Source of the DNA: Spirilliplanes yamanashiensis | GTDB taxonomy: Bacteria; Actinomycetota; Actinomycetes; Mycobacteriales; Micromonosporaceae | NCBI RefSeq assembly: GCF_016863475.1 | Contig: NZ_BOOY01000001.1 | Span: 186,001 to 250,000 of the forward strand | DNA length: 64,000 bases | Direction: 5' to 3' | Part shown: positions 11,592-25,605 of the stretch, piece by piece | Layout of the letters: each line of letters starts with the position of its first letter | Position numbering within the stretch: position 1 is the first letter of the stretch | Notes under the pieces: generated by a model | Told to the model about the DNA's origin: nothing | The model's input: only the letters and a program-made list of their open reading frames with translations | Database searches by the model: none | Made by a program: the position numbers and the translations under genes

Positions 11592-12659
11592 ATGGCCGGT
11601 ATCCCGCTCGACGACATCGTCAAGGCCCCGAAGGCGCTGCTGCACGACCACCTGGACGGCGGCCTGCGGCCGGCCACGATCGTGGAGCTGGCCGACGGCA
11701 TCGGGCACGCGCTGCCCTGCACCGACCCGGCCGACCTGGGCCGCTGGTTCGTGGAGTCGGCCGACTCCGGCTCGCTGGAGCGGTACCTGGAGACGTTCGC
11801 GCACACCGTCGCCGTCATGCAGACCGAGGAGTCGCTGCACCGCGTGGCCCGCGAGTGCGCACTCGACCTGGCCGCCGACGGCGTCGTCTACGCCGAGGTG
11901 CGCTACGCCCCCGAGCAGCACCTGGAGAACGGCCTGTCGCTGGACGCCGTGGTCGAGGCGGTGCTGGCCGGCTTCGCCGACGGCTCGGCCGAGGCGGCCG
12001 CCGCCGGCCGGCCCATCCGGGTGGGCACGCTGCTGACCGCCATGCGGCACGCGGCCCGCTCGCAGGAGATCGCCGAGCTGTCCGTGCGCTACCGCGACAC
12101 CGGCGTGGTCGGCTTCGACATCGCCGGCGCGGAGGCGGGCTTCCCGCCCACCCGGCACCTGGACGCGTTCGAGTACCTGCAGCGCGAGAACTTCCACTTC
12201 ACGATCCACGCCGGCGAGGCGTTCGGGCTGCCGTCGATCTGGCAGGCCATCCAGTGGTGCGGCGCCGACCGGCTGGGTCACGGCGTGCGCATCGTCGACG
12301 ACATCACCGGCGGCAAGCTGGGCCGGCTGGCGTCGTACGTGCGCGACAAGCGCATCCCGCTGGAGCTGTGCCCGTCGTCCAACGTGCAGACCGGCGCGGT
12401 CGCCTCGATCGCCGACCACCCGATCGGGCTGCTGCGCGACCTGCGCTTCCGGGTCACGGTCAACACCGACAACCGGCTGATGAGCGGCACGTCGCTGTCG
12501 CGGGAGCTGGCGCTGCTGACCGAGGCCTTCGGGTACGGCTGGGCCGAGGTGCAGTGGTTCACGGTGAACGCGATGAAGTCGGCGTTCATCCCGTTCGACG
12601 AGCGGCTGGCCCTCATCAACGAGGTCGTCAAGCCGGCGTACGCCAAGCTGATCGGCTGA
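11592..12659 (+). CDS. add: Adenosine deaminase
   Basis: 355 aa. Zinc-binding HDHLDGG near residue 20, [10 protein letters not shown] (about 200), DRLGHGVRI and CPSSNVQTG are the adenosine deaminase signatures, and [11 protein letters not shown] supplies the last metal ligand region. It converts adenosine or deoxyadenosine to inosine or deoxyinosine in the cytoplasm. It completes the salvage group fed by the importer upstream, and is separated from it by the reverse-strand methyltransferase. Confidence 0.96.
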
Positions 12660-13077
12660 CCCGGACGCCCGCGGGAGGCCCCGGATAACGGAAGTAGCCG
12701 ATCGGCCGACCCGATTCGGCCATCCGGGCATCGATACGTCTACACACATCGCCAAATCCGGCATTCCGGGTTGTCGCTCCGACCTGCGCCGGGCAAGGTC
12801 GTGGGCGGCACGGGTCCCGGACCGGGGAGCCGGGTCCGATGGCGGCGGACGGCGGCAACTCGTCACCGTGCAGGCATCGACCGTGCACTTTAGGTGACAT
12901 CGCGCGAGTGTGTTTCAACTGATCAGTAGCAACCGGGCGTCGTACAAGCGGTCCGCCTGACGCTGCTCTTTCTCTTTGACACTCGTCGTGATGGAATCTC
13001 GGGGGTTCGATCCGCGGGGTCGAAGGGTGTGCGGTGCCTGATCCGCCGGAGAAGGCCCGATCTTGGAGGACGGTGAC
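12660..13077. other. Intergenic region before the conservon
   Basis: No credible gene in 418 nt. It holds TTGACA at 12976-12981, without a clear -10 partner, two direct copies of CCGTGCA (12866-12872 and 12881-12887), and GGAGG at 13065-13069, which is the ribosome-binding site of the kinase gene. The conservon promoter is probably here but I cannot place it. Confidence 0.5.
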
Positions 13078-16000
13078 GTGAGCGAGCGGCCCGGGGCGAC
13101 GAACGGCATGATGTCGCGTCTCCGGCGGCCTGCCGGCCGGCTGCGGGACATGCCGATCTGGTCCAAGCTGGGCCTGATCATGCTCGTGCCGACCGTGGCC
13201 ACCATCATCGTCGGCACGACCGGCCTGGTCGAGCAGATCGACGAGGCGAGCAACGCCGAACGCGCGCGCACCCTCGCCGCGCTGACCGACACCTCCGGTG
13301 AGCTGGTCAACCACCTGCAGAACGAGCGCGCCTTCGCGATCATGATGCTGTCGGCCCGCAACGACACCGCCAAGGCCGCGGCGCTGCGCCTCTACACCAC
13401 CGAGCAGCCGCTCGTCGACGAGGCCAAGAAGCCCTACTCGCAGCAGCGCGCCGCCCTGAGCGACCTGCCGGGCAAGCTCGACCTGCTGCTGTCGCGCCTC
13501 GACCGCAACCTCGAGGACCTGCCGGCCATGCGCAGCCAGATCGCCAACGGCACCATGCGCCTGAGCGAGACGGCCGACAACTACGAGGTCCTGCTCTCCG
13601 ACCTGCTCGACCTGCGCGACTCGTCCGCCCAGCTGTCCGGCGACACCAACCTGTCCGACCGCATCCGCACCGCCGCCGCCGTCGCGCGCAGCAAGGAGTT
13701 CCTCTCCCAGCAGCGCATCGTCGTGCACGAGATGCTCGGCCAGAACCAGCTCACGCCGAAGCTGCGCAACGACTACACCGCCACCCAGACCGGGCAGGCG
13801 CAGGCCGTGCAGACCATGAAGTCGACGGCCACCGACGCCGAGCGGCAGACCTACGAGCAGATCGTCAGCGGCCCCGACCTGCGCGCGTCGACGAACTACA
13901 ACGCCTACGTGCAGGCCCGCGCCACCCCCGACATCAGCGACGTGCCGTTCAACGCCGAGCTGTGGGACAACGCGATGCGCGGCCACGCCAAGCTCGTCCG
14001 CGACGTCGAGGCCCAGTTCGACGACCAGATCCTCGCCGACGCCACCGAGCGCCGCGACAGCGTCAACACCCGCGTCTTCGTCGAGACCGCCCTGCTGCTC
14101 GGCATGCTGCTGCTGGCCATCCTGTTCGCCTGGCTCGTCGCCCGGTCGATGGCCCGGTCGCTGCGCGAGCTGCGCCAGGGCGCCCTCGCCGTCGCCCAGT
14201 TCGGCCTGCCGCACGCCGTCGGCCGGCTGCGCGACCCGGCCCTGGTCAACAGCCAGATGACTCCGGCGCAGGTGGCCGACCAGATCGCCGAGCCGCTGCC
14301 CGTGCGCAGCCGCGACGAGTTCGGCCAGGTGACCGAGGCGTTCAACGCGGTCCACCTCGAGGCCGTCCGCACCGCCGCCGAGCAGGCCGCGCTGCGCTCC
14401 AGCGTCTCCACGATGTTCGTCAACCTCGCCCGCCGCTCCCAGATCCTGGTCGACCGGCTCATCGGCCACCTCGACCGGCTGGAGCGCGGCGAGGAGGACC
14501 CGGACCGCCTGGCCGAGCTGTTCCAGCTCGACCACCTCGCCACCCGCATGCGCCGCAACGACGAGAACCTGCTGGTCCTCGCCGGCGCCGACTCCACCCG
14601 CGTGCAGCGCGAACCGGCCGCCCTCATCGACGTGCTGCGCGCCGCCCAGTCCGAGGTGGAGCACTACACCCGCATCGAGTTCGGCACCGTCGACCGCGAG
14701 CTGGAGGTCGCCGCCCACGCGGTCAACGACCTCGTGCACCTCGTCGCCGAGCTGTTCGACAACGCCACCGCCTTCTCCCCGCCCGACTCGCACGTCATGG
14801 TCGAGGCGCGGCGGGTCGGCGACCGGGCCACCCTCTACGTCGAGGACCGCGGCATCGGCATCAGCCCCGACCAGCTGCGCGACCTCAACGAGCGGCTCGC
14901 CAACCCGCCCATGGTCGACGTCGCCGTCTCCCGCATGATGGGTCTCGTCGTGGTCGCCCGGCTGGCCAACCGGCACGGCGTCCGCGTCGAGCTGCGCCCG
15001 TCCGACGAGCGCGGCACCGTCGCCGACGTCACCCTGCCCGCCGCCGTGCTCGTGCCGCGCGCCGTCTCCGGCGGCCGCGTGCAGGCCGGCGTCGGCGGCC
15101 CCGCCGCGTACGACGGCGGCGGCCGCGCCGAGGACACCATGGTCCAGCGTTCCCCGTTCGGCGCCCCGCTCGCCCTGGAGAGCGGCCCGTCGCGGCCCAC
15201 CTCCGGCGGCGGCTTCGGCTCGCCGTACGAGCCGGCCGGGCGCCCGTTCGACCCCAACCCGCCGCTGAACGGCGGCGGCATGCTCGGCACCGGCGGCCCG
15301 CGCTCCATCCCCGCCTGGTCCGACCTGACCGGCGCCGGCGCCGGCCCGGCCGGCGGCACCAACGGCAACGGCACCAACGGCGCCAACGGCAACGGCGGCC
15401 GCGGGCCGAACGGCTTCCACGGCCCGCAGCAGCAGCCGTCGGCGTTCCCCGCCTCCGGCCCGCCGAGCGACCTGCCGCGCCGCCGCACCGACTTCGACGA
15501 CGGCCACACCGGCCCGATCCCGCGCCAGCTGCCGGCCAACCCGGAGAACTTCCGGCCCGACCCGTACCGTGGCGGCCCGGCCGTCCCGCCGGTGTCCGCG
15601 CCGCCGGTGCCCCCGGTGTCGGCCCCGCCGCTGCCCGGCCGCCCGGTCTCCGGCCCGCCCGTCTCCGCGCCGCCCGTCGCGTCCGCGCCGCCCGTCACGT
15701 CCGCGCCGCCGCACCCGTCGCTGGTGTCGCCGAGCGGGTCGTACCCGGTCGTGCCGCCCGGCGTGCAGCGCCCCGACGTGCCCGGCCGGCCGCAGTCCGG
15801 CCCGCCCGCCCCGCCGGCGTGGCCGCCGGTGCCGAGTTCCGGCGCCCCGGCCGTGCCCGAGAGCCTCGCCGCCGCGCTCGACATGACGGCGGAGATCCCC
15901 AGGGTCCGTCCGACCGATGCCGGAAGCACTGGTCAGCAGCCTAAGGTCGGCCCGGTGGACCGGCAGCCGGACGAGCAGCGCACGGCCGCCAAGCAGGCGG

Positions 16001-16680
16001 CGGCCGCGGCGCACCAGGCTGCCGCGAACCAGGCCGCCGCCGCCCAGCGGGCCGCCGCCGAGCAGGCCGCCGCCGCCAAGCGGCAGTCCGCCGAGACCCA
16101 GGCGCGCATCTCCGACGAGACGATGGAGCTGCCGATCTTCCGGGAGCTCGAGTCGGCGTGGTTCCGCACGCAGCGCACCGACGACACCCCGAAGGCCGCG
16201 AACGGCACCGCCGCCACGTCCGCCAACGGCGTGCAGTCGCAGCGCTTCTCCACCGCCGAGCAGCCGCCGCGCACCCCGGTGCCGCAGCAGGCGCAGCCGT
16301 CCGACCGGCGCGCCGAGCCGGCGCCCGCCGCGGAGGCCCCCGCGCCGGCCCCGGCCGCCCGCGGCGGCGGCAACAGCCCGTGGCAGACGGCGGCCGACGA
16401 GGGCTGGCAGGCGGCCCGCGCCGCCGAGAGCAACGTCGCCAGCGTCAACACCACCACGACCGCCGGCCTGCCCAAGCGCACGCCGATGGCCCAGCTCGTC
16501 CCCGGCGGAGTCGACCGGGGCGGTCCCTCCGTCCAACGCCGGACGCCCGAGGCGGTGCGCGGGCTGCTGTCCGCGTACCATCGCGGGGTTCAGCGCGGCC
16601 GTTCCAAGGATCAACCGACCGCCACGGACGAAACGCCGGGCGGGCAGTCCTCGCAGGCTGGCAAGGAGCATGAGGAATGA
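13078..16680 (+). CDS. cvnA: CvnA: sensor histidine kinase-like protein of a conservon
   Basis: 1200 aa from GTG (GGAGG eight nt upstream). Transmembrane segment 1 at about 25-48, extracellular NIT-type sensor region to about 335, transmembrane segment 2 (337-356), HAMP-like linker, [10 protein letters not shown] as the likely phospho-acceptor helix (about 483-492), then a GHKL ATPase domain with [10 protein letters not shown] (N box), VEDRGIGI (G1) and [10 protein letters not shown]. From about 660 to 1000 the chain is Pro/Gly/Ala-rich with many APPV repeats. The tail 1015-1200 has SAWF, GW, AGLPKR, LVPG and RGVQRGR motifs. It is first in the canonical cvnABCD order and overlaps cvnB by 4 nt. 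Confidence 0.93.
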
Positions 16681-17081
16681 CATCAACGCAGGATCTCGGT
16701 TGGCTTCTCGCCAACTTCGCTGACCGCGTGCCGGGGGTCGCCCACGCGATCGCCGTCTCCGCGGACGGCCTGTTGCTCGCGGCTTCCCGCGATCTGCCGC
16801 GTGACCGCGCCGACCAGCTGGCCGCCATCGCGTCCGGCCTGGTCAGCCTCACGCAGGGCGCCGCTCGCTGCTTCGAGGGCGGTGCGGTGCTGCAGACGGT
16901 GGTCGAGATGGACAACGGGTTCCTGTTCCTGATGTCGATCTCCGACGGCTCGTCGTTCGCGGTCCTCGCGGCCCGCAGCTGCGACGTGGGCCAGGTGGGC
17001 TACGAGATGGCGCTGCTCGTCGACCGGGTCGGCGACGCGCTCACGCCCGCGCCGCGCAGCGCGGCCGGGATGCTGGGCTGA
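16677..17081 (+). CDS. cvnB: CvnB: roadblock/LC7 domain protein
   Basis: 134 aa, ATG overlapping the cvnA stop (ATGA). A single roadblock/LC7 domain with [18 protein letters not shown] and [11 protein letters not shown]. Conservon CvnB proteins are small MglB-like partners that act on the CvnD GTPase and link it to the kinase-like CvnA at the membrane. Confidence 0.95.
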
Positions 17082-17158
17082 CGCCCTGCCTTCGTCGCGG
17101 GCAGTGGCAAGCTTGACGGACAGCGACAGTCCTACGGGTCTAGGGAAGGGGTGTAACG

Positions 17159-17542
17159 GTGACGATGGCCGAACGGGATGAACCGACCGGCGCGCTGGTC
17201 CGGCCGTATGCCGTGACCCGCGGACGGACCCGGCCGAGACTGGAGATCGCCCTCGAGGCGCTCGTCGAGACCACCAACCGCGGCCGCACCGGAGCTTCCG
17301 GCGTCGGAAGCACGGGCAACGAGCACCAGTACATCGCGGCGATGTGTGACAACGGGTTGCAGTCGCTCGCCGAGATCGCCGCGCGGATGCACATGCCGCT
17401 CGGCGTCGCTCGGGTCATCGTCGCCGACATGGCCGCCGACGGCCTCGTCGCGGTGCACGAACCGACATCCTTGGAGGACGAACCGGATGCGGTGGGCACG
17501 GAACTGCTGGAGAGGGTGCTGAGTGGACTTCGCAGGCTCTGA
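17159..17542 (+). CDS. cvnC: CvnC: DUF742 protein
   Basis: 127 aa from GTG with GGAAGGGG seven nt upstream. The DUF742 domain has a winged-helix-like C-terminal half (SLAEIAARMHMPLGVARVIV) and the typical VRPYAVTRGRT beginning. Third conservon component. The gap from cvnB is 77 nt, the only real break in the operon. The last 20 nt overlap cvnD. Confidence 0.95.
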   Translation: MTMAERDEPTGALVRPYAVTRGRTRPRLEIALEALVETTNRGRTGASGVGSTGNEHQYIAAMCDNGLQSLAEIAARMHMPLGVARVIVADMAADGLVAVHEPTSLEDEPDAVGTELLERVLSGLRRL

Positions 17543-18131
17543 CAACTCGCGCCGGCCTGCCGCCGGTCGCGTGACATCGGCGAAGATCGTCATCGCCGGT
17601 GGCTTCGGCGTCGGCAAGACGACGCTCGTCGGCTCGGTCTCGGAGATCACGCCGCTGACCACCGAGGCGATCATGGCGTCGGCCAGTGTGGGTGTCGACG
17701 ACAACCGGCAGGTGCCGGGCAAGACGACCACCACGGTCGCCATGGACTTCGGTCGCATCAGCATCGATCGCGACCTGATCCTGTACCTGTTCGGCACCCC
17801 CGGCCAGACGCGGTTCTGGTTCATGTGGGACGAGCTGGTCCGGGGCGCCATCGGCGCGGTCGTCATGGTCGACACGCGGCGGCTCGCCGACTGCTTCGCG
17901 GCGATCGACTTCTTCGAGCACCGGCGGCTGCCGTACCTGGTGGCCATCAACTGCTTCGACGGCATGCAGTACCACAACGCGCAGGACGTGCGGGACGCGC
18001 TGGCGATCTCGAGCGACGTGCCCGTGGTCAGCTGCGACGCGCGCAACCGCGAGTCGACGAAGAACGTGCTCATCTCGCTCGTCGAGTACGTCCTGACGAT
18101 GCGCCGCCAGCGCGCCGTCGCCCCGGCCTGA
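17523..18131 (+). CDS. cvnD: CvnD: small Ras/MglA-like GTPase
   Basis: 202 aa from GTG, overlapping cvnC. G1 motif GGFGVGKTT, a Thr-rich switch I (GKTTTTVAMDFG), G3 FGTPGQTRF and a G4 equivalent NCFD in place of NKxD, which is usual for CvnD. It acts as the GTP-dependent switch of the conservon with CvnB as its partner. A strong hairpin follows the stop. Confidence 0.95.
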   Translation: MDFAGSDNSRRPAAGRVTSAKIVIAGGFGVGKTTLVGSVSEITPLTTEAIMASASVGVDDNRQVPGKTTTTVAMDFGRISIDRDLILYLFGTPGQTRFWFMWDELVRGAIGAVVMVDTRRLADCFAAIDFFEHRRLPYLVAINCFDGMQYHNAQDVRDALAISSDVPVVSCDARNRESTKNVLISLVEYVLTMRRQRAVAPA

Positions 18132-18152
18132 CCGCCGGCCGCACCAGCACCC

Positions 18153-18188
18153 GCGACGCCCACGCCTCTTCGCAGGCGTGGGCGTCGC
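18153..18188. terminator. Bidirectional terminator hairpin, conservon / VOC gene
   Basis: A 15-bp perfect stem (18153-18167 with 18174-18188) and a CTTCGC loop. It lies 21 nt after cvnD and 14 nt before the end of the convergent VOC gene, so it can serve both. Confidence 0.85.
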
Positions 18189-18201
18189 GCTGCGCCCGGC
18201 G

Positions 18202-18594
18202 TCAGGCGTTCGACCAGTCCCGCGTCGACAGGGTGAGCCGGTAGCCGTCCGGGTCCGCCACTGTCACGCCCCACCGCGCCCAGTACGCCCCCTGCTCCAC
18301 CCGGGCGCCGCCCGCCGCCACCAGCCGCTCCACCAGCCCCTCGTCGACCGGCCTCGCCAGGTACAGCACGAGCAGGTCCTCGGCGGTCGGGCGCGGCGCG
18401 ACGGCCAGGTTCGGCCCGCCCACCAGCTCCAGGTGCCAGCCGGCGCCGGGCAGCCCCACCATCAGCAGGTCGTGGTCCCCGCCCGCCGACCGGTACAGCA
18501 CGGTCAGGCCGAGGCCGTCCACATAGAACCGCTCGGCGGCGGCGAGGTCACGGGACGGGCGGGCGATCCGCAGGTGCGCACCGGGCTCGATCAT
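18202..18594 (-). CDS. VOC-superfamily (glyoxalase/bleomycin resistance-like) protein
   Basis: 130 aa in two beta-alpha-beta-beta-beta halves: HLRIARPSRDLAAAERFYVDGLGL at the start and ARWGVTVADPDGYRLTL at the end are typical VOC motifs. The family covers lyases, dioxygenases and drug-binding proteins. No neighbour narrows the substrate. Confidence 0.87.
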   Translation of the reverse strand: MIEPGAHLRIARPSRDLAAAERFYVDGLGLTVLYRSAGGDHDLLMVGLPGAGWHLELVGGPNLAVAPRPTAEDLLVLYLARPVDEGLVERLVAAGGARVEQGAYWARWGVTVADPDGYRLTLSTRDWSNA

Positions 18595-18610
18595 GACCCC
18601 AGTGTGCCGC

Positions 18611-19567
18611 CTACCGGGGCAGCCGTGCGGCGTCGGCGACGCGTTGCCGCCAGTCGGCGCGGATGGCGTCGAGCTGGGTGCGGTGCCGCGCCTCCCACGC
18701 GTCGAGGTTCCGCGCCACCTGCCGCATCGCGATGACGTACGCCGGGCGGCGGCACTCGGCGTCGGCGGCGAACACGGCGTCCATCTCGGCGAGGCCCCGG
18801 GTCCAGGCGGCGTTCGGCGGGCTGCCGTCGACCGGGGCGTCGCGGCGGTCGAGGCGGGGCTGGAAGAGGAACTCGGTGCGGTCCTGCCCGTCGATCTCGT
18901 AGCCGTACCGGTCCCTCATGCAGGGTTCGTAGGTGGCCATGGCGGCGACCAGCCCCAGGATCGGCTCGGTGAGCAGGCCCGGGAAGACCGACAGCCGGTA
19001 GGCGTCCGCGGGGGGCTCGAAGTCGTTCGGCGGCCGGTAGCCGGTGGGGCCGTTGCAGCGGTTGAAGAACGGCACGTCGGCGTCCGGAACGAGGCTGGTG
19101 CTGCCGTCGATGAGCACGCCGGCGCGCGCCCTGCGGGCGGCGGCCAGTTCGATGAGCACCGCCCGCCGGCCCCGCGCGGTGAGGGAGTCGATGACGCTGC
19201 CGAACCCGTTGCCGTAGCCGAGGTCGGCGTCGGTGAACTCGTCGTAGCGGCTGACGAACGGCAGCGGCCGGTAGGTCCGCCCGGCGGCCGCCATGCACGC
19301 CACCAGCGCGCCTTCCGCCCGGTGGTAGTTGAGCCGCTCGGCGGCCCGGTGCTCTTCCAGGTTGCCGGTGATCCGGCGGGTCAGGTCGTCGAGCCGGACG
19401 GCCGTCGCTGCCACGTCGGCCGGCACGTCGGCGGGCACGTCGGCGGGCACCGTGGGTGGCGCGGCGGGTGCCGCAGCCGGCGCCGCGGCCGGTCCCGCCG
19501 CCGCGCACGCCGCCAGGGACAGGAGGGCGCCCGCCGATGCCAGGGCCGCCACGATGCGCCGCTTCAC
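18611..19567 (-). CDS. Putative lipoprotein of unknown function
   Basis: 318 aa from GTG. Signal sequence with lipobox LSLAAC (Cys21), then a short Ala/Pro linker containing three PADV repeats. The mature domain has paired cysteines (VACMAAAG, FNRCNG, YEPCMRD, AECRRP) and many aromatic residues. I do not recognise the family. Divergent from the lipoprotein gene at 19625, 57 nt apart, so both may share a regulatory region. Confidence 0.75.
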   Translation of the reverse strand: MKRRIVAALASAGALLSLAACAAAGPAAAPAAAPAAPPTVPADVPADVPADVAATAVRLDDLTRRITGNLEEHRAAERLNYHRAEGALVACMAAAGRTYRPLPFVSRYDEFTDADLGYGNGFGSVIDSLTARGRRAVLIELAAARRARAGVLIDGSTSLVPDADVPFFNRCNGPTGYRPPNDFEPPADAYRLSVFPGLLTEPILGLVAAMATYEPCMRDRYGYEIDGQDRTEFLFQPRLDRRDAPVDGSPPNAAWTRGLAEMDAVFAADAECRRPAYVIAMRQVARNLDAWEARHRTQLDAIRADWRQRVADAARLPR

Positions 19568-19624
19568 GACCGGACCAACGATCCGGCCCTCGCCGGGGAC
19601 GCGAACCCGCTACCGTGTCCGACC

Positions 19625-20161
19625 GTGAGCCTCGTGTCCCGGCGCCGCGCCCCCGCCGCCCTCGTCCTGGCGCTGCTGCTGGCGGGCTGCGCCCCGGACG
19701 CCGCCCACGAGTCGTGCGGGCGGGCGGGCGCGGCGGACTTCGGCCCGCCGATCAGGTTCGCGATCGCGCACGACGACTACAAGGCCCGGCACGTCGGGCG
19801 CACCGCCGAGGGGCACCAGTTCTTCCTGACCCGCCCGTTCGAGATCGGCGACGGCGGCCGGGAGTTCGTGGCGCTGTACGTGTTCGACGCGGCCGGGCGC
19901 CTGCTGAGCACGGAGATCGACGCGTTCGGGCCGGGCGACGACGGGGCCGACCGGGCGCACGCCGACCGGCTCGCCGGGCTGGGCGCAGTGCGGTACGGGC
20001 GCATCGAGGTGGCGCCGTTCGGCGTGCGGCGGTTCGGCACCACGTTCGGGCTGGTGGCCCGGCCGCCCGCGGGCGCGGACGACACGTGGTGGGTCACCGC
20101 GGAGCCCGGCGACTACATGGCCTTCCCGGCGCCCTGGGACTGCGGCTGGTACGACACCTGA
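19625..20161 (+). CDS. Small putative lipoprotein of unknown function
   Basis: 178 aa from GTG; TACCGT (19611-19616) eight nt upstream suggests a near-leaderless start. Lipobox LLLAGC (about residue 20). The mature part is predicted strand-rich, with FAIAHDDYKARHVG and WWVTAEPGDYMAFPAPWDCGW. No recognised family. It ends 7 nt before the convergent 715-aa gene. Confidence 0.7.
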   Translation: MSLVSRRRAPAALVLALLLAGCAPDAAHESCGRAGAADFGPPIRFAIAHDDYKARHVGRTAEGHQFFLTRPFEIGDGGREFVALYVFDAAGRLLSTEIDAFGPGDDGADRAHADRLAGLGAVRYGRIEVAPFGVRRFGTTFGLVARPPAGADDTWWVTAEPGDYMAFPAPWDCGWYDT

Positions 20162-20168
20162 CCGCGGG

Positions 20169-22316
20169 TCAGCTGGGGTAGCCGGCCGACCGGAAGTCGT
20201 CGTCGCGGCTGCCGCCGTCCCGGCTGAAGTCCCAGCCGCCGTTGGCCTCGCGGCCCGGGCGGCCGCCGATCGCGTACCCGCCGATCTCCTGGCCGCGGCG
20301 CCAGCCGCGGAAGTAGCCGGTGGTGTGGGCGGCGATGCTGGCGGCGTCGCGGACGATGCGCAGCGGGCGCTCGTCGCGCAGCGGCGAGCCGGGCACCAGG
20401 TTGGCCTGCGGGACCCGCTTCGGCAGGCCCGCGCTGGTCTCCGCCTCGATCTTCGGCTGCGCGGCCTCCTCGGCGGCCCGCCAGCCGCTGTCCATGCTGG
20501 ACTCCCAGCCGACCTCGTTGTCGTCGGTGTGGCCGGTGAACCAGGCGGACCGCGCGGCGGCGAAGATCAGCAGGTCGCCGTCGCCCTCGTCGGGCACGGG
20601 CGGCGTGGAGCTGCGGTCGAGCGCCGTCAGGGTGGGCCGGCGCGGGGCGCCGCGGCCGTTGCGGCCCTCGCCGTCGACCAGGCGCAGGCCGCGGTCGAAG
20701 CGGGACTCGTCGGCGGCGTCGCGCTCCGGCTCGACGAGGCGCAGGGACGGCGGCTCGGCGGGCAGGTCGTCGGACTGCCACGGCGGCGGCACCCGGCCGG
20801 CGCCCGACGTGGGCGCGGGGGCGCGCTCCTCCGGGGCGGCGGGCGGGTTGACCGGCCAGTTGGCGCGGGACCCGGGCGGCGGGGCGTCGCGGCGCGGCGC
20901 CGGCATGGGCAGCGAGTAGTCGGTGACGCTCGGGGCCTGGTCCGGGACGCTGCTCGTGGGCCGGGTGGTGGGCCGCGGCGGGATGACCGTGCGCTGGCGC
21001 TCGGCGCGGGCGTTGTTGATGGCCGCGTTGGTGAGCGTGGGGCGGAACGGCTGGCCGGCCTCGGCGGGCGGCACGGTCGAGCGCGGGCCGGGCACCATGC
21101 CGGGCGGCGGGGGCGGCGGCGCCGAGACGGGGCGCGACGACGACACCGGGCGCGACGGCAGGCCGGTGGACGCGGCGGGCGCGAGCGGCGGCGGGGTGAC
21201 CGGGCGCGGCGCGACGGGCTGCGGCGCCATCGGCGGCGGGCTCAGCGGCGCGGGGGCGGTCGGCGGGGAGGTCATCGGGCGCGGCCCGGCCGGGCCGGAG
21301 ACCGGCGACGGCTCCTGGCGGGCGCGGCGGCCGCCGGAGGTGAGGTCGACGCGCTGGATGGTCGGCGCGGGGCTCTCGGCGGCGCGGCGGGCGCTGCGGC
21401 GGCCGGTGGTGGTGCCGGCGGCGGGCGGCTCGACGACGCGGGCGGACAGGGTGGAGACGAGCGAGGCGCAGGCGGCGTCGCAGGCGCGGACCGCGGCCAG
21501 GGCGTCCTGCACGGTCTCGGCGACGGCCGGGGCGAGCGCCTTGTTGACGCCGCCGCGGCGCGGCGACTCGGCGATGGCCACGCGCAGGGCGGTCACGGCG
21601 TCGCCGACGGAGCGCGGGTCGCCGACCCCGCCGTCGACCAGGGCGGCGATGACGTCGTCGGCGACCTCGGCGGCGTCGCGGCCGCGGGCCCCGGCGCCGG
21701 TGAGGCGGCCGGGCTCGGGCAGGGCGTCGAGGACGGCCATCGGCAGCGGCTGCGCCGGGTCGGGGTACGCGCGCAGCGCCGCCGGGTACAGCTCGCGCAG
21801 CACCTCGCGCAGGGCGGTGGCGGCGGCGGAACGGCCGGTCAGCATGGCGGCGTGGGCGGCCAGGACGGGCTTGTGGCCGACCAGCTCACGCGGGGTCGGC
21901 AGCGGCGTGGCGGTGAGGGCGCCGGCCTGCAGCGCGCGGGCGAGCCCGACGGCCCGCCGGTACGCGGGCGGGAACTGGATCTCCTCGGCGGAGTCGTCGT
22001 CCGCGAAGCGCTCCGCGAAGTCGTCGACGGAGTCGTCGTCGGCCACGGCGAGCGGGCGGCCCGCGGCGGTCAGCAGGGAGGTGAGCACGTGGTCGTCACT
22101 GTCGGCGGCGACGGCGGCGCTGTTCAGGCCGGAGGAGCGCTCCACGAGCAGCGCGCCGAGCCAGGCGTAACCCGCCGGGTCGTCACTGACCTCGTGCACA
22201 CCGAGCAACCGGCCTGCGTCGTCGACGACGGCGACGGTCATCCCCGGCGCGGCCGGAGTCCGACTCACCGTTGTGTCCGCCGACGCCAGACCGCAGTACA
22301 CCCGTACGAGCGCCAC
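20169..22316 (-). CDS. Orphan protein: degenerate transposase-like N-terminus, Pro-rich linker, conservon-kinase-type C-terminal tail
   Basis: 715 aa from GTG with GGAGGAGG upstream. Residues 1-215 read like the N-terminal half of an IS110-type transposase (RVYCGLASAD..., AVVDDAGRLLG, AAGRPLAVADDDSVDDFAERF), but the usual GID aspartate is Ala. Residues 300-560 are a Pro-rich disordered linker. From about 580 to 690 the order IFxxxxSAWF, SGWRAAEEA, SAGLPKRVPQANLVPG and YFRGWRRG repeats that of the CvnA tail in this window. No transposon ends are seen, so it is likely a resident gene. It forms an operon with the gene ending at 22377. Domain reading is tentative. Confidence 0.7.
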   Translation of the reverse strand: MALVRVYCGLASADTTVSRTPAAPGMTVAVVDDAGRLLGVHEVSDDPAGYAWLGALLVERSSGLNSAAVAADSDDHVLTSLLTAAGRPLAVADDDSVDDFAERFADDDSAEEIQFPPAYRRAVGLARALQAGALTATPLPTPRELVGHKPVLAAHAAMLTGRSAAATALREVLRELYPAALRAYPDPAQPLPMAVLDALPEPGRLTGAGARGRDAAEVADDVIAALVDGGVGDPRSVGDAVTALRVAIAESPRRGGVNKALAPAVAETVQDALAAVRACDAACASLVSTLSARVVEPPAAGTTTGRRSARRAAESPAPTIQRVDLTSGGRRARQEPSPVSGPAGPRPMTSPPTAPAPLSPPPMAPQPVAPRPVTPPPLAPAASTGLPSRPVSSSRPVSAPPPPPPGMVPGPRSTVPPAEAGQPFRPTLTNAAINNARAERQRTVIPPRPTTRPTSSVPDQAPSVTDYSLPMPAPRRDAPPPGSRANWPVNPPAAPEERAPAPTSGAGRVPPPWQSDDLPAEPPSLRLVEPERDAADESRFDRGLRLVDGEGRNGRGAPRRPTLTALDRSSTPPVPDEGDGDLLIFAAARSAWFTGHTDDNEVGWESSMDSGWRAAEEAAQPKIEAETSAGLPKRVPQANLVPGSPLRDERPLRIVRDAASIAAHTTGYFRGWRRGQEIGGYAIGGRPGREANGGWDFSRDGGSRDDDFRSAGYPS

Positions 22317-22376
22317 GGCGTCGTCCTCCTCCCCGGGACTCCTCGTGTGCCAACTGCAAATGCTCCCTGGTGACGG

Positions 22377-23255
22377 TCAGTCGCGCCAGTCCACGGAAGC
22401 AGAGATCTTCCCGATAATCGTGCGCCAGCCGATGCTTGCCTGTTGTGCCCCGATTTTGCGGAGGCGGCGCCGGCCGCGGAACCCGCCGAGCCCGCCCTTG
22501 GCGGCGGAACGCAGCGATTCGTCCAGGTCGTCGAGGGGGGTGCCGGGGGACAGGGCGGCGACGACGGCCTTGATCCGCAGCGCGTACGCCAGGTCGCGGG
22601 CGATCTCGCCGGCCTCGATCAGCAGCTGGTTGTCCCACGTGTCGTGGCCGCCGCGCAGGTTCTCCACGACCAGGTCCAGCTCGTAGCTGTCCTCGTCGTC
22701 GACCACCACGTCCTCGACGGTGATGCGCTCGGCGAGCGTCGGCCAGGTGTCGAGCTGGGTGAGGTCGTGCGGGGCGCCGGAGCGCACGAACGACACCAGC
22801 GACTCGGGCGACTTGAAGACGAGCAGCTTGCCCTTGTGGGTGAGGAAGAAGGGGACCTCCTCGACGGGCTCCTTCTCCTCGTCGTGGAACTCCTCCTCGG
22901 CGGGCTCGTCGCCCTCCGCGGCCTCGTCGGCGTCGGAGTCCTTGCCCTCGACGAGGGCCTTGTACTCCTCGTCGAGGATCACGACCTCCTCGTCGTCCTC
23001 GTCGTCGTCCAGGCCGGCCCGGGCGCGGGCGTCGAAGACGTCGTCCTCGTCGCTCTCGGCGACCTCGGTGCCGGCGAGCTGGTCGGACATCCGGTACGCG
23101 CGGAGGGTGAAGCCGACACCGCCCGGCAGGGCGATCTCGACGGGCGTGACCCGGGTCTGCTCCCACAGCGCGCGGTCCGCACCATCGGCGGACGAGACGT
23201 CGGACGACGAGACCTCGTCGGCGTCGGTCGGCTGCTCGGACGGCTGGCGGGCCAC
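22377..23255 (-). CDS. Acidic protein often labelled DNA primase/primosomal-like in actinobacteria; function unproven
   Basis: 292 aa from GTG at 23255, chosen because GGAGG lies five nt upstream. A longer frame reaches 23300, but a TAGGGT -10-like element (23301-23306) would put the transcript start inside it. The N-terminal block WEQTRVTPVEIALPGGVGFT is followed by a very acidic region (about 75-130), then VPFFLTHKGKLLVFKSPESL and a basic C-terminus (FRGRRRLRKIG). I see no primase catalytic motifs, so the common label is doubtful. It precedes the 715-aa gene by 60 nt on the same strand. Confidence 0.72.
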   Translation of the reverse strand: MARQPSEQPTDADEVSSSDVSSADGADRALWEQTRVTPVEIALPGGVGFTLRAYRMSDQLAGTEVAESDEDDVFDARARAGLDDDEDDEEVVILDEEYKALVEGKDSDADEAAEGDEPAEEEFHDEEKEPVEEVPFFLTHKGKLLVFKSPESLVSFVRSGAPHDLTQLDTWPTLAERITVEDVVVDDEDSYELDLVVENLRGGHDTWDNQLLIEAGEIARDLAYALRIKAVVAALSPGTPLDDLDESLRSAAKGGLGGFRGRRRLRKIGAQQASIGWRTIIGKISASVDWRD

Positions 23256-23384
23256 GGTGACCTCCGGGTGAGGTGGGATCCTGCGGGTGACTCTGGGCAC
23301 ACCCTAGTGGGCGGAGCTGAGTGCCGGTGGACCGTACCCCCGGTCAACCGATTTGGCCACACTCCGGTCGCGGGACGGCCCGCG

Positions 23385-24197
23385 TCAGAAGCCCTTCGGG
23401 TGCCAGACGGTCTTGGTCTCCAGGAACGCGGTCATCCGGCCCAGGCCCGGGTCGGCGGCCCAGTCGGCGCCGGGGCCCGGCCGCAGCACCCGCTTGAGCG
23501 TGCCCGCGGCCGCCTGCTCCAGGGCGACGGCCAGCTCGCCGTCGGCGACGCCGGTCAGGTCGAGGGCGTTGACGTCGTCGTGTGACGCCAGCCACGGCGC
23601 GATCTCCGCCGGCGACCCGGTGAGGATGTTCACCACCCCGCCGGGCAGGTCGCTGGTGGCGAGCACCTCCGCCAGCGTCACCGCGGGCAGCGGGTCGCCG
23701 GCCACGACCACCACCGCGTTGCCGGTGACGATCGCCGGGGCCACCACGCTGACCAGCCCCAGGAACGACGCCGGCGCGACGACGCCCACGACGCCGGTCG
23801 GCTCGGGCGCCGACAGGTTGAAGTACGGCCCGGCCACCGGGTTCGCGCCGCCGTGCACCTGGGCCAGCTTGTCGGCCCAGCCCGCGTACCAGACCCAGCG
23901 GTCCGTGGCGGCGTCCACGTCGGCCTCCGGCACGCCCAGCGCGGCGAACTCCGCGCGCCGGCCCTCCAGCATCTCGGCGGCCCGGTACAGGACCTGGCCC
24001 CGGTTGTACGCCGTCGCGCCCGCCCACCCCGGCTGCGCCTTGCGGGCGGCGAGCACGGCGTCGCGGGCGTCCTTGCGGGAGGCGAGGGCGACGTTCGAAC
24101 CGTCCACCAGATAGGTCCGTCCTGACTCGCTGCGGGGGAACTTCCCGCCGATGTAGAGCTTGTACGTCTTGCGGACGGCGAGGCGCTGCTCAGGCAA
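23385..24197 (-). CDS. Half-size aldehyde dehydrogenase-family protein lacking the catalytic domain
   Basis: 270 aa versus about 480 for the family. It has the N-terminal and Rossmann parts (YKLYIGGKFPRSESGR, GVVGVVAPASFLGLVS, AIVTGNAVVVVAG, LPGGVVNILTG) and the family C-terminal tail (MTAFLETKTVW), but the segment between them with the catalytic Cys is missing. It is probably not an active dehydrogenase alone. It overlaps the full-length dehydrogenase gene by 8 nt, which suggests the two products work as a complex. Confidence 0.88.
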   Translation of the reverse strand: MPEQRLAVRKTYKLYIGGKFPRSESGRTYLVDGSNVALASRKDARDAVLAARKAQPGWAGATAYNRGQVLYRAAEMLEGRRAEFAALGVPEADVDAATDRWVWYAGWADKLAQVHGGANPVAGPYFNLSAPEPTGVVGVVAPASFLGLVSVVAPAIVTGNAVVVVAGDPLPAVTLAEVLATSDLPGGVVNILTGSPAEIAPWLASHDDVNALDLTGVADGELAVALEQAAAGTLKRVLRPGPGADWAADPGLGRMTAFLETKTVWHPKGF

Positions 24198-25605
24198 GGT
24201 AGGCCTCCAGCCCGTGGCGGCCGCCCTCGCGGCCGTAGCCCGACTCCTTGTAGCCGCCGAACGGCGACGCCGGGTCGAACCGGTTGAACGTGTTCGCCCA
24301 CACCACCCCGGCGCGCAGCTTGTCCGCCACGGCCAGGATGCGCGAGCCCTTCTCCGACCAGATGCCCGCCGACAGCCCGTACGGCGTGTTGTTCGCCTTC
24401 TCCACCGCCTCGGCCGGGGTGCGGAACGTCAGCACCGCCAGCACCGGCCCGAACACCTCCTCGCGGGCGATGCGGTGCGTCTGGCTGACCCCGGTGAAGA
24501 TCGTCGGGGCGAACCAGAACCCCTGGCCCGGCAGCTCGCACGGCGGCGACCAGCGCTCGCCCTCCTGCTCGCCGACGGCGGCCAGCGCGCGGACGCGCTC
24601 CAGCTGGACGGACGAGTTGATCGCCCCGATGTCGGTGTTCTTGTCGAGCGGGTCGCCCACGCGCAGCTGCGCCATCCGCCGCTTCAGGGAGTCGAGGACC
24701 TCGTCGTACACGTTCTCCTGCACCAGCAGCCGCGACCCGGCGCAGCAGACGTGGCCCTGGTTGAAGAAGATGCCGTTGACGATGCCCTCGACCGCCTGGT
24801 CGATCGGGGCGTCGTCGAAGACGATGTTCGCCGCCTTGCCGCCCAGCTCCAGCGTGACCCGCTTGCCGGTGCCCGCCACCGACCGGGCGATCTGCCGGCC
24901 CACCTCCGTGGAGCCGGTGAACGCCACCTTGTTCACGTCGGGGTGCTCGACCAGGGTGCGGCCGGTGTCGCCGGCGCCGGTGACGATGTTCACCACGCCC
25001 GGCGGCAGCTCGGCCTGGCGGCACACGTCGGCGAAGAACAGCGCCGACAGCGGCGTCGTCTCCGCCGGCTTCAGCACCACCGTGTTGCCCGTCGCCAGCG
25101 CCGGCGCGATCTTCCACGCCAGCATCAGCAGCGGGAAGTTCCACGGGATCACCTGGCCGACCACACCCAGCGGAGTGGTGCCGTACCCCGCGTACGCCAG
25201 CTTGTCGGCCCAGCCCGCGTAGTAGAAGAAGTGCGCGGCCACCAGCGGCAGGTCGACGTCGCGCGCCTCCCGGATCGGCTTGCCGTTGTCGAGCGACTCC
25301 AGCACCGCCAGCTCGCGCGAGCGCTCCTGCACGATGCGGGCGATCCGGTACAGGTACTTCGCGCGGGCGGCGCCCGGCAGCGCCGACCAGCCGGCGAACG
25401 CGCGCCGCGCGGCCGCCACCGCCCGGTCGACGTCGGCGGGGCCGGCCACCGAGACCTCGGACAGCACCTCCTCGGTGGCCGGGTTGACCGTCTTGAACAC
25501 GCCGCCGTCGGCGGGCGCGGCGAACTCGCCGTCGATGAACAGGCCGTACGACGGCGCCAGGTCGACGATGGAACGGGACTCGGGGGCGGGTGCGTACTCG
25601 AACAT
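24190..25605 (-). CDS. Aldehyde dehydrogenase (NAD-dependent family)
   Basis: 471 aa from ATG at 25605. Complete enzyme: VIPWNFPLLMLAWK, FTGSTEVGR, catalytic base in LELGGKAANIVF and catalytic Cys in NQGHVCCAG. It starts 5 nt after deoC, so it is translated from the same mRNA. The context suggests oxidation of acetaldehyde (or a similar aldehyde) released by DeoC during deoxyribose breakdown. That substrate is inferred. Confidence 0.93.
   Translation of the reverse strand: MFEYAPAPESRSIVDLAPSYGLFIDGEFAAPADGGVFKTVNPATEEVLSEVSVAGPADVDRAVAAARRAFAGWSALPGAARAKYLYRIARIVQERSRELAVLESLDNGKPIREARDVDLPLVAAHFFYYAGWADKLAYAGYGTTPLGVVGQVIPWNFPLLMLAWKIAPALATGNTVVLKPAETTPLSALFFADVCRQAELPPGVVNIVTGAGDTGRTLVEHPDVNKVAFTGSTEVGRQIARSVAGTGKRVTLELGGKAANIVFDDAPIDQAVEGIVNGIFFNQGHVCCAGSRLLVQENVYDEVLDSLKRRMAQLRVGDPLDKNTDIGAINSSVQLERVRALAAVGEQEGERWSPPCELPGQGFWFAPTIFTGVSQTHRIAREEVFGPVLAVLTFRTPAEAVEKANNTPYGLSAGIWSEKGSRILAVADKLRAGVVWANTFNRFDPASPFGGYKESGYGREGGRHGLEAYLA

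Follow-up and report, generated by a model that had tools for sequence, protein, structure and literature searches.

The passage of the signal from kinase to GTPase in conservons is described as poorly understood in the excerpt of PMC13343842 on which we draw here. For one conservon, two-hybrid tests by Komatsu et al. (2006), as reported in an excerpt of PMC8510531, showed CvnA9 to bind both CvnB9 and CvnC9, and the same excerpt reports interactions among CvnA9, CvnB9, CvnC9 and CvnD9. Accessories of the system are known as well, namely the P450 CvnE and the GAF protein CvnF, a stimulator of its kinase; both are counted four genes from cvnA and go with kinases lacking a sensory domain (excerpt of PMC13343842). 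As to the C-terminal part of the kinases, a 2026 preprint states, in the portion available, that the longer C-terminal part of the MfpE kinase shows no notable conservation of sequence (PMC13015309).

In the window, by which we mean the whole 64,000-nucleotide stretch of DNA analysed here, a conservon core with cvnA, cvnB, cvnC and cvnD in order (13108-18131) is convergent to the gene of a 715-aa protein that carries a CvnA-like tail at its C-terminus. The preliminary description called this protein an orphan, a name that we keep, with the caveat that the gene has a constant partner, p307. No paper naming the tail or the protein in its title or at the start of its abstract came up in a literature search with most subscription papers outside its coverage. 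The features of the locus are the following.

13108 to 16680, plus strand: cvnA, a histidine-kinase-like sensor (Pfam NIT 1.9e-37, HATPase_c 2e-14, HAMP 5.7e-7)
16135 to 16602, plus strand: CvnA tail, from the SxWF-type element to RGR
16677 to 17081, plus strand: cvnB, a Roadblock/LC7 protein (Robl_LC7 9e-23), in ATGA overlap with the cvnA stop
17159 to 17542, plus strand: cvnC, named by operon place and conservation, the Pfam scan having covered A, B and D
17523 to 18131, plus strand: cvnD, a small GTPase by place and by GTP/ATP-binding matches (ATP_bind_1 3.6e-33; weaker Ras and Roc)
22316 (GTG start) to 20169 (end of the stop), minus strand: the 715-aa tail-bearing protein (orphan), with IS110-like N domain, Pro-rich linker and conservon tail
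21438 to 22316, minus strand: IS110-like N domain (RNase H/RuvC-like plus helical), residues about 1-293, catalytic DEDD positions altered
20592 to 21437, minus strand: Pro-rich linker of the orphan, residues about 294-575, 24% proline
20538 to 20567, minus strand: SAWF motif IFAAARSAWF of the orphan, residues 584-593
20289 to 20507, minus strand: orphan tail core, residues 604-676, with WESSMDSGWRAA, AGLPKRVPQANLVPG and YFRGWRRGQ
22377 to 23300, minus strand: p307, the partner gene, 307 aa, 60 bp upstream of the orphan on the same strand

The cvnA start at 13108 is a chosen one, and the residue numbers of the CvnA tail elements (1025-1034, 1107-1118, 1134-1148 and 1160-1180) count from the TTG at 13063; the CvnA linker is 20% proline. 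Two genes lie between cvnD and the orphan, one of them glyoxalase-like and the other taken for a lipoprotein gene.

A tail common to CvnA and a second protein

The preliminary description had reported the tail as common to CvnA and the 715-aa protein and the remainder of both as unrelated, and the two statements stand. Every element that it quoted is present in order: the orphan fits the full pattern (SxWF, W..aD.GW.aA, GLP.R.P...LvPG and an R-rich end, after a linker), with the GW-type element WESSMDSGWRAA at residues 604-615, the GLPKR-type element AGLPKRVPQANLVPG at residues 629-643 and the R-rich end AASIAAHTTGYFRGWRRGQ at residues 658-676. When the orphan was compared with CvnA by BLASTP, the tail was the sole significant piece (28/75 identical, E 2e-8), all other pieces having E values of 3.9 or more. 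To avoid circularity, an independent profile was built from 86 CvnA kinase tails, all from outside the family (in all genome counts the Micromonosporaceae, as judged from the named loci and the window's own placement) and was searched against five proteins and 2000 shuffled orphan sequences, 2005 in total. It matched CvnA at E 3e-22 and the orphan at 59.7 bits and E 2.3e-17 among the 2005 sequences, and 0/2000 shuffles were reported at E <= 10. Since the shuffles were matched in composition, a chance match arising from Pro-rich low complexity is ruled out, and on these comparisons the tails of about 75 residues in the orphan and CvnA are homologous, a genuine common module.

Conservation along the orphan is uneven. 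Judged by mean pairwise identity in 16 sequences (a seventeenth, which has masked stretches, was left out), the segment GLPKR..PG (0.94) and the end helix (0.93) rank highest, followed by the first 200 residues (0.83) and the C-terminal end (0.81); the segment from SAWF to GW (0.70) is less conserved than those first 200 residues, and the helical part (0.65) and the linker (0.61) are lower still.

The tail and the N-terminal domains joined to it were also followed through other genomes. Within the order, 96 of the 200 genomes searched have a match to a tail profile at E <= 1e-3; within the class, a broader profile at E <= 1e-5 has matches in 80 of 197 genomes, mostly on kinases in the stretches read. 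These whole-genome searches scored some candidates per genome, with about 150 matches listed in each, and weaker tails of other architectures may escape them. From the listed matches 75 stretches were chosen, giving 83 classified tail-bearing ORFs: 67 kinases, all 67 with a CvnB gene in the stretch, eight IS110-like proteins and eight others, these last being three orphan-type tails cut by contig ends, four broken or cut CvnAs and one LysR regulator. Sixty further stretches gave another 60 ORFs (one stretch, L343, is without a tail), of which 53 are kinases (52 with CvnB) and seven are incomplete. The tabulation thus comprises 143 tail-bearing ORFs: 120 kinases (119 with CvnB), 11 orphans, one LysR regulator and 11 incomplete frames. 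A fetched stretch of 200 bases (L168) was excluded from the counts.

Several of these carriers have features of their own. The LysR-type regulator (L212:1200-4523, also L345:9099-12422; HTH_1 2.3e-7, LysR_substrate 1.9e-25) combines a complete conservon tail with a long linker rich in Pro and Gly, and no cvn genes were found around it in the 20 kb fetched. Two genomes of the same family as this LysR carrier each have one small frame, of 146 and 134 aa, with little beyond a conservon tail (L352:167-604 and L353:1492-1893, both on the minus strand), near which no cvn genes lie in 1.9 and 3.2 kb, respectively. Two tails stand in tandem in nine of the 67 CvnA kinases of the first set (L159, L160, L161, L163, L166, L235, L237, L238 and L245) and in none of the 53 of the second. 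In five stretches (L199, L201, L202, L290 and L318) the CvnA frame is apparently broken between the kinase part and the tail, and these breaks may be either sequencing errors or real losses. One of the incomplete frames of the second set (L346:51-803, the same as L311) is cut by the contig start, and no cvnB was found close behind it. In the window's own genome, the strong matches to the tail profile are CvnA, the orphan and a second CvnA, and the weak ones are another CvnA and an unrelated frame; the second conservon (L084, C26:155624-155842) has a CvnA with the same tail, and no orphan was noted within 3.2 kb of it.

A decayed IS110-like domain at the N-terminus

The N-terminus, left unnamed in the preliminary description, can now be given an origin. 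A Pfam scan of the full-length orphan yielded 0 families at E <= 1, and hence no NIT, HAMP or HATPase match, and PDB sequence searches with the orphan and with a profile of its N domain found no relative. Among 34 relatives, 17 match DEDD_Tnp_IS110 (PF01548) at E <= 1, the best at 0.0011, the window sequence itself not being one of them. Since two other families also match weakly (PSD2 in 16/34, best 0.087; DUF167 in 4/34, best 0.0018), Pfam alone is not decisive for the N domain. Profile-profile comparison by hhalign aligned the N domain with IS110 at E 4.2e-15, and at E 1.4e-18 with divergent orphans included. Searched over 396 genomes of the phylum, the N-domain profile matched 15: the window's own genome and one family member strongly, and 13 others at E 4e-11 to 4.7e-4. 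Four of these 13 were scanned and match PF01548 at E <= 3.8e-34, and the nine that were aligned keep D, E, D and D. The N-terminus of the orphan is, over about 220 residues, homologous to the IS110-family transposase domain and a decayed form of it.

At the four aligned DEDD columns the window sequence has A, D, P and R. The first catalytic D is replaced by A or T in 12/12 orphans and the E by D in 12/12; the third and fourth columns adjoin gaps and are less secure, and the fourth is D in four g239 sequences. With its catalytic residues changed in this way, the N domain is predicted to be catalytically dead. No C-terminal transposase domain, which in IS110 we take to be PF02371, was found in the orphan among Pfam families at E <= 1. 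The N domain was modelled with AlphaFold2 at low confidence (mean pLDDT 66), and a fold search with the model gave as best matches the RNase H-like domains of Spt6/Tex and MutS, with Z up to 8.9, where a Z under 8 may mean merely a common arrangement; no IS110 structure is among the matches listed. The helical part (143-297) resembled ribosome-biogenesis or Nop5-type proteins with Z up to 8.8, a likeness that was set aside as a common helical arrangement. The domain may bind DNA, RNA or protein.

Conservation in the family and the rbX gene of a sister lineage

A broader orphan profile, run over 298 genomes of the order, gave a single strong match (E < 1e-80) per genome in 54 family genomes and none in the 244 others, the non-family status of the 202 genomes without any match being taken from list order. 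Among those 244 genomes, 22 match weakly, at 4.1e-16 or weaker, with frames of 148-533 aa. In the window's own genome the orphan is a single match. Over the first 200 codons, median dN/dS is 0.084 (range 0.015-0.216) in 2662 non-independent pairs with 85-99.5% protein identity and dS of 0.1-1, and the gene is one that is kept under purifying selection. That the frame is an artefact of the long plus-strand ORFs overlapping it was ruled out, since conservation of the minus-strand protein extends over 80 named loci and dN/dS is this low. As for an RNA element at the locus, Rfam had no match at gathering score over 12600-24200.

The named loci are the best 80 of 91 from a scan of named genomes, all in genera of the Micromonosporaceae. 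In all of the best 80, p307 adjoins the orphan with a gap of 60-72 bp. The orphan accompanies a conservon through the sampled family, with exceptions: cvnD lies convergent beyond the orphan in 60/60 of these best 80 loci whose stretch reaches that far (the remaining 20 end inside the orphan or within about 1.3 kb of it), 57 of the 60 with cvnA, B and C found too, and p307, the orphan and the conservon stand in the same order in 20/20 stretches fetched from whole genomes, seven of which are probably from the same genomes as named loci; the two are apart in two of eight genomes of a sister lineage, described below. Spacing between the orphan and cvnD varies from 173 to 3917 bp in the 60 loci, the order being kept. 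The conserved neighbourhood also includes genes that we label, by presumption, add and deoC.

As regards p307 itself, no Pfam match above the cut-off was found. The gap between p307 and the orphan (22317-22376) shows strong conservation beyond the ribosome-binding site, with a GGGAGCATCAGT block in most named loci, and perhaps contains an internal promoter. A second family of the order (f2) has partial homologues of p307, in ten genomes (L109-L119). In two of these loci, L110 and L112, the homologue adjoins a gene that resembles one in the window and on that ground is presumed to be adenosine-deaminase-like; neither an orphan nor a tail was found in the 3.3 kb.

In the lineage made up of g239 and g240 the orphan is shorter, with frames of 513-561 aa and the same parts, and is followed directly by a CvnB-like Roadblock gene of about 141 aa, which we call rbX, in 8/8 genomes examined. 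The pattern was first seen in five genomes, and three further g239 genomes, fetched afterwards, all have it. In all seven g239 genomes the orphan stop and the rbX start form an ATGA overlap, as cvnA and cvnB do in the window; in g240, rbX starts (TTG) 15 bases past the orphan stop. The rbX product is 40-42% identical to the window CvnB (Robl_LC7 7.1e-19), and its structural model has a mean pLDDT of 70. A search of 200 genomes of the order returned rbX at E 3.2e-90 to 1.2e-82 in the first five genomes only, the next match being at 4.8e-30, and rbX is distinct, a tight group of its own. Where a Roadblock hit was obtained among the named loci (57), and likewise in the window, the cvnB position is the only one found. 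In two of the eight rbX genomes the orphan is away from the conservon (176 kb apart in G537, on different contigs in G487), and the orphan-rbX pair can thus stand apart.

The idea that g239 and g240 are an early branch was not borne out: in a gene tree of the orphan N domain with IS110 as outgroup they form the sister clade of the other family members (supports 0.94 and 0.98), and the cvnD gene tree agrees. With that placement, rbX may be either ancestral and then lost or gained in the lineage; this bears on the origin of rbX and not on its pairing with the orphan.

Possible partners of the tail and relation to known systems

Our preferred reading, to which we give a probability of about 0.5, is that the orphan is a family-specific conservon accessory whose tail docks on a CvnB-type Roadblock protein. 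Its parts are an IS110-type N domain, presumably dead, then a tether rich in proline and lastly the CvnA tail, which in Micromonospora, Actinoplanes and relatives would dock onto the conservon's own CvnB and in g239 and g240 onto the dedicated Roadblock paralogue encoded directly downstream. In that case the orphan might be a rival of CvnA for the protein that regulates the CvnD GTPase, or a bridge from CvnA to it, and the targets of the N domain and p307 would thereby be linked to the GTPase cycle. We infer docking, the identity of the partner and any effect on signalling from the homology of the tail, the conserved GLPKR segment and end helix, the single strong copy per family genome, the low dN/dS, the convergent cvnD, the presence of rbX in all eight genomes examined of its lineage and the binding of CvnB9 by CvnA9 in the two-hybrid tests. 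Both the link to the conservon and the Roadblock partner can be well argued from sequence, a Roadblock protein being the most economical partner because the gene after the tail is cvnB where the tail ends a kinase and that of a CvnB paralogue where it ends a dead transposase domain. The placing of rbX behind the orphan, in the manner of cvnB behind cvnA, fits the docking module for a common partner that the preliminary description had in mind. The association of the tail with Roadblock genes is in the main a consequence of its place on CvnA, with cvnB adjoining (119/120), and the pairing with rbX, in one lineage, is the one independent pointer to a Roadblock partner.

Against a strict conservon reading count the two of eight rbX genomes in which the pair is unlinked, the LysR carrier standing alone and the two small frames without cvn genes. 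The segment from SAWF to GW, less conserved in the orphan than its N domain, likewise speaks against the preferred reading. It could be that the tail serves generally in localisation or scaffold binding (at membrane, pole or polymer), its co-location with conservons being indirect and Roadblock binding unneeded. That would suit carriers as wholly different in their N domains as kinases, an IS110-like protein and one LysR regulator, the lack of cvn genes in 20 kb around the LysR carrier and in 1.9 and 3.2 kb around the small frames, and the tandem tails of some CvnAs (9/67; 0/53). The dedicated Roadblock gene overlapping the orphan and the fixed conservon neighbourhood point instead to conservon proteins specifically, and we consider a general module of this kind rather unlikely. 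Docking on a conservon protein other than CvnB has also to be weighed, since CvnB and CvnC both bind CvnA9: the tail might bind CvnC or CvnD, or act back on the kinase, with the orphan feeding into the same step. The binding of CvnC9 by CvnA9 in two-hybrid tests (excerpt of PMC8510531) and the occurrence of tail matches in 80/197 genomes of the class, mostly on kinases in the stretches read, would agree with this, whereas the extra gene next to the orphan in g239 and g240 codes for a Roadblock protein and not for a CvnC or CvnD, and such a partner seems to us quite improbable. That the orphan is an old fusion with a piece of cvnA, persisting by gene order alone and with no role in conservon signalling, would account for the linkage of both genes in one conserved neighbourhood by plain inheritance but sits so badly with an N domain under purifying selection (median dN/dS 0.084), identities of 0.93-0.94 in two tail segments and presence in 54 family genomes that we find it very improbable.

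Docking of the tail on a Roadblock protein, the reading that we prefer, can be taken one step further, to an extension that we consider rather unlikely. The dead IS110 domain, as a nucleic-acid-binding domain of bridge-recombinase type, might serve as the output arm of a G-protein switch, with the tail as its plug in the Roadblock/GTPase complex and DNA or RNA as the target to which the N domain and p307 pass the signal. More broadly, the tail would then be a portable plug through which one Roadblock/GTPase switch governs proteins as different as kinases, LysR regulators and transposase domains. Apart from this extension, a tail found on kinases and non-kinases and paired with its own Roadblock gene would offer a short segment and a candidate partner for the kinase-GTPase step, and the orphan shows an IS110 domain retained throughout a bacterial family in a function that is not transposition.

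Compared with IS110 transposases (PF01548), the orphan has a homologous N-terminal stretch of about 220 residues and a low-confidence model that is RNase H-like, but its DEDD residues are changed, no transposase domain is found by Pfam and a tail is added. IS110 elements are mobile, multi-copy and sporadic, in contrast to the orphan with its one strong copy in each of 54 family genomes; an ordinary transposon is ruled out by the altered catalytic residues together with the single copy per genome. With CvnA the orphan shares the C-terminal tail after a Pro-rich linker and, in g239, a Roadblock gene next in ATGA overlap; unlike CvnA, it is without NIT, HAMP and HATPase. The rbX product is, like CvnB, MglB and MfpD, a Roadblock/LC7 protein but belongs to its own tight group, and its gene lies behind the orphan rather than behind a kinase. 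The conserved tail in 80/197 genomes of the class may be set beside the lack of C-terminal conservation stated for MfpE in the available portion of the preprint (PMC13015309). CvnF and CvnE, as described in the excerpt of PMC13343842, resemble the orphan in being extra proteins outside the CvnA-D core that go with particular conservons. CvnF is a GAF protein and CvnE a cytochrome P450, whereas the orphan, with 0 Pfam families at E <= 1, has neither domain and is ruled out as a protein of either type; its gene, moreover, is convergent, with two genes between it and cvnD, and the CvnA of the window has a NIT domain. From these comparisons, the orphan would be a new accessory type of a known signalling system and not a new system.
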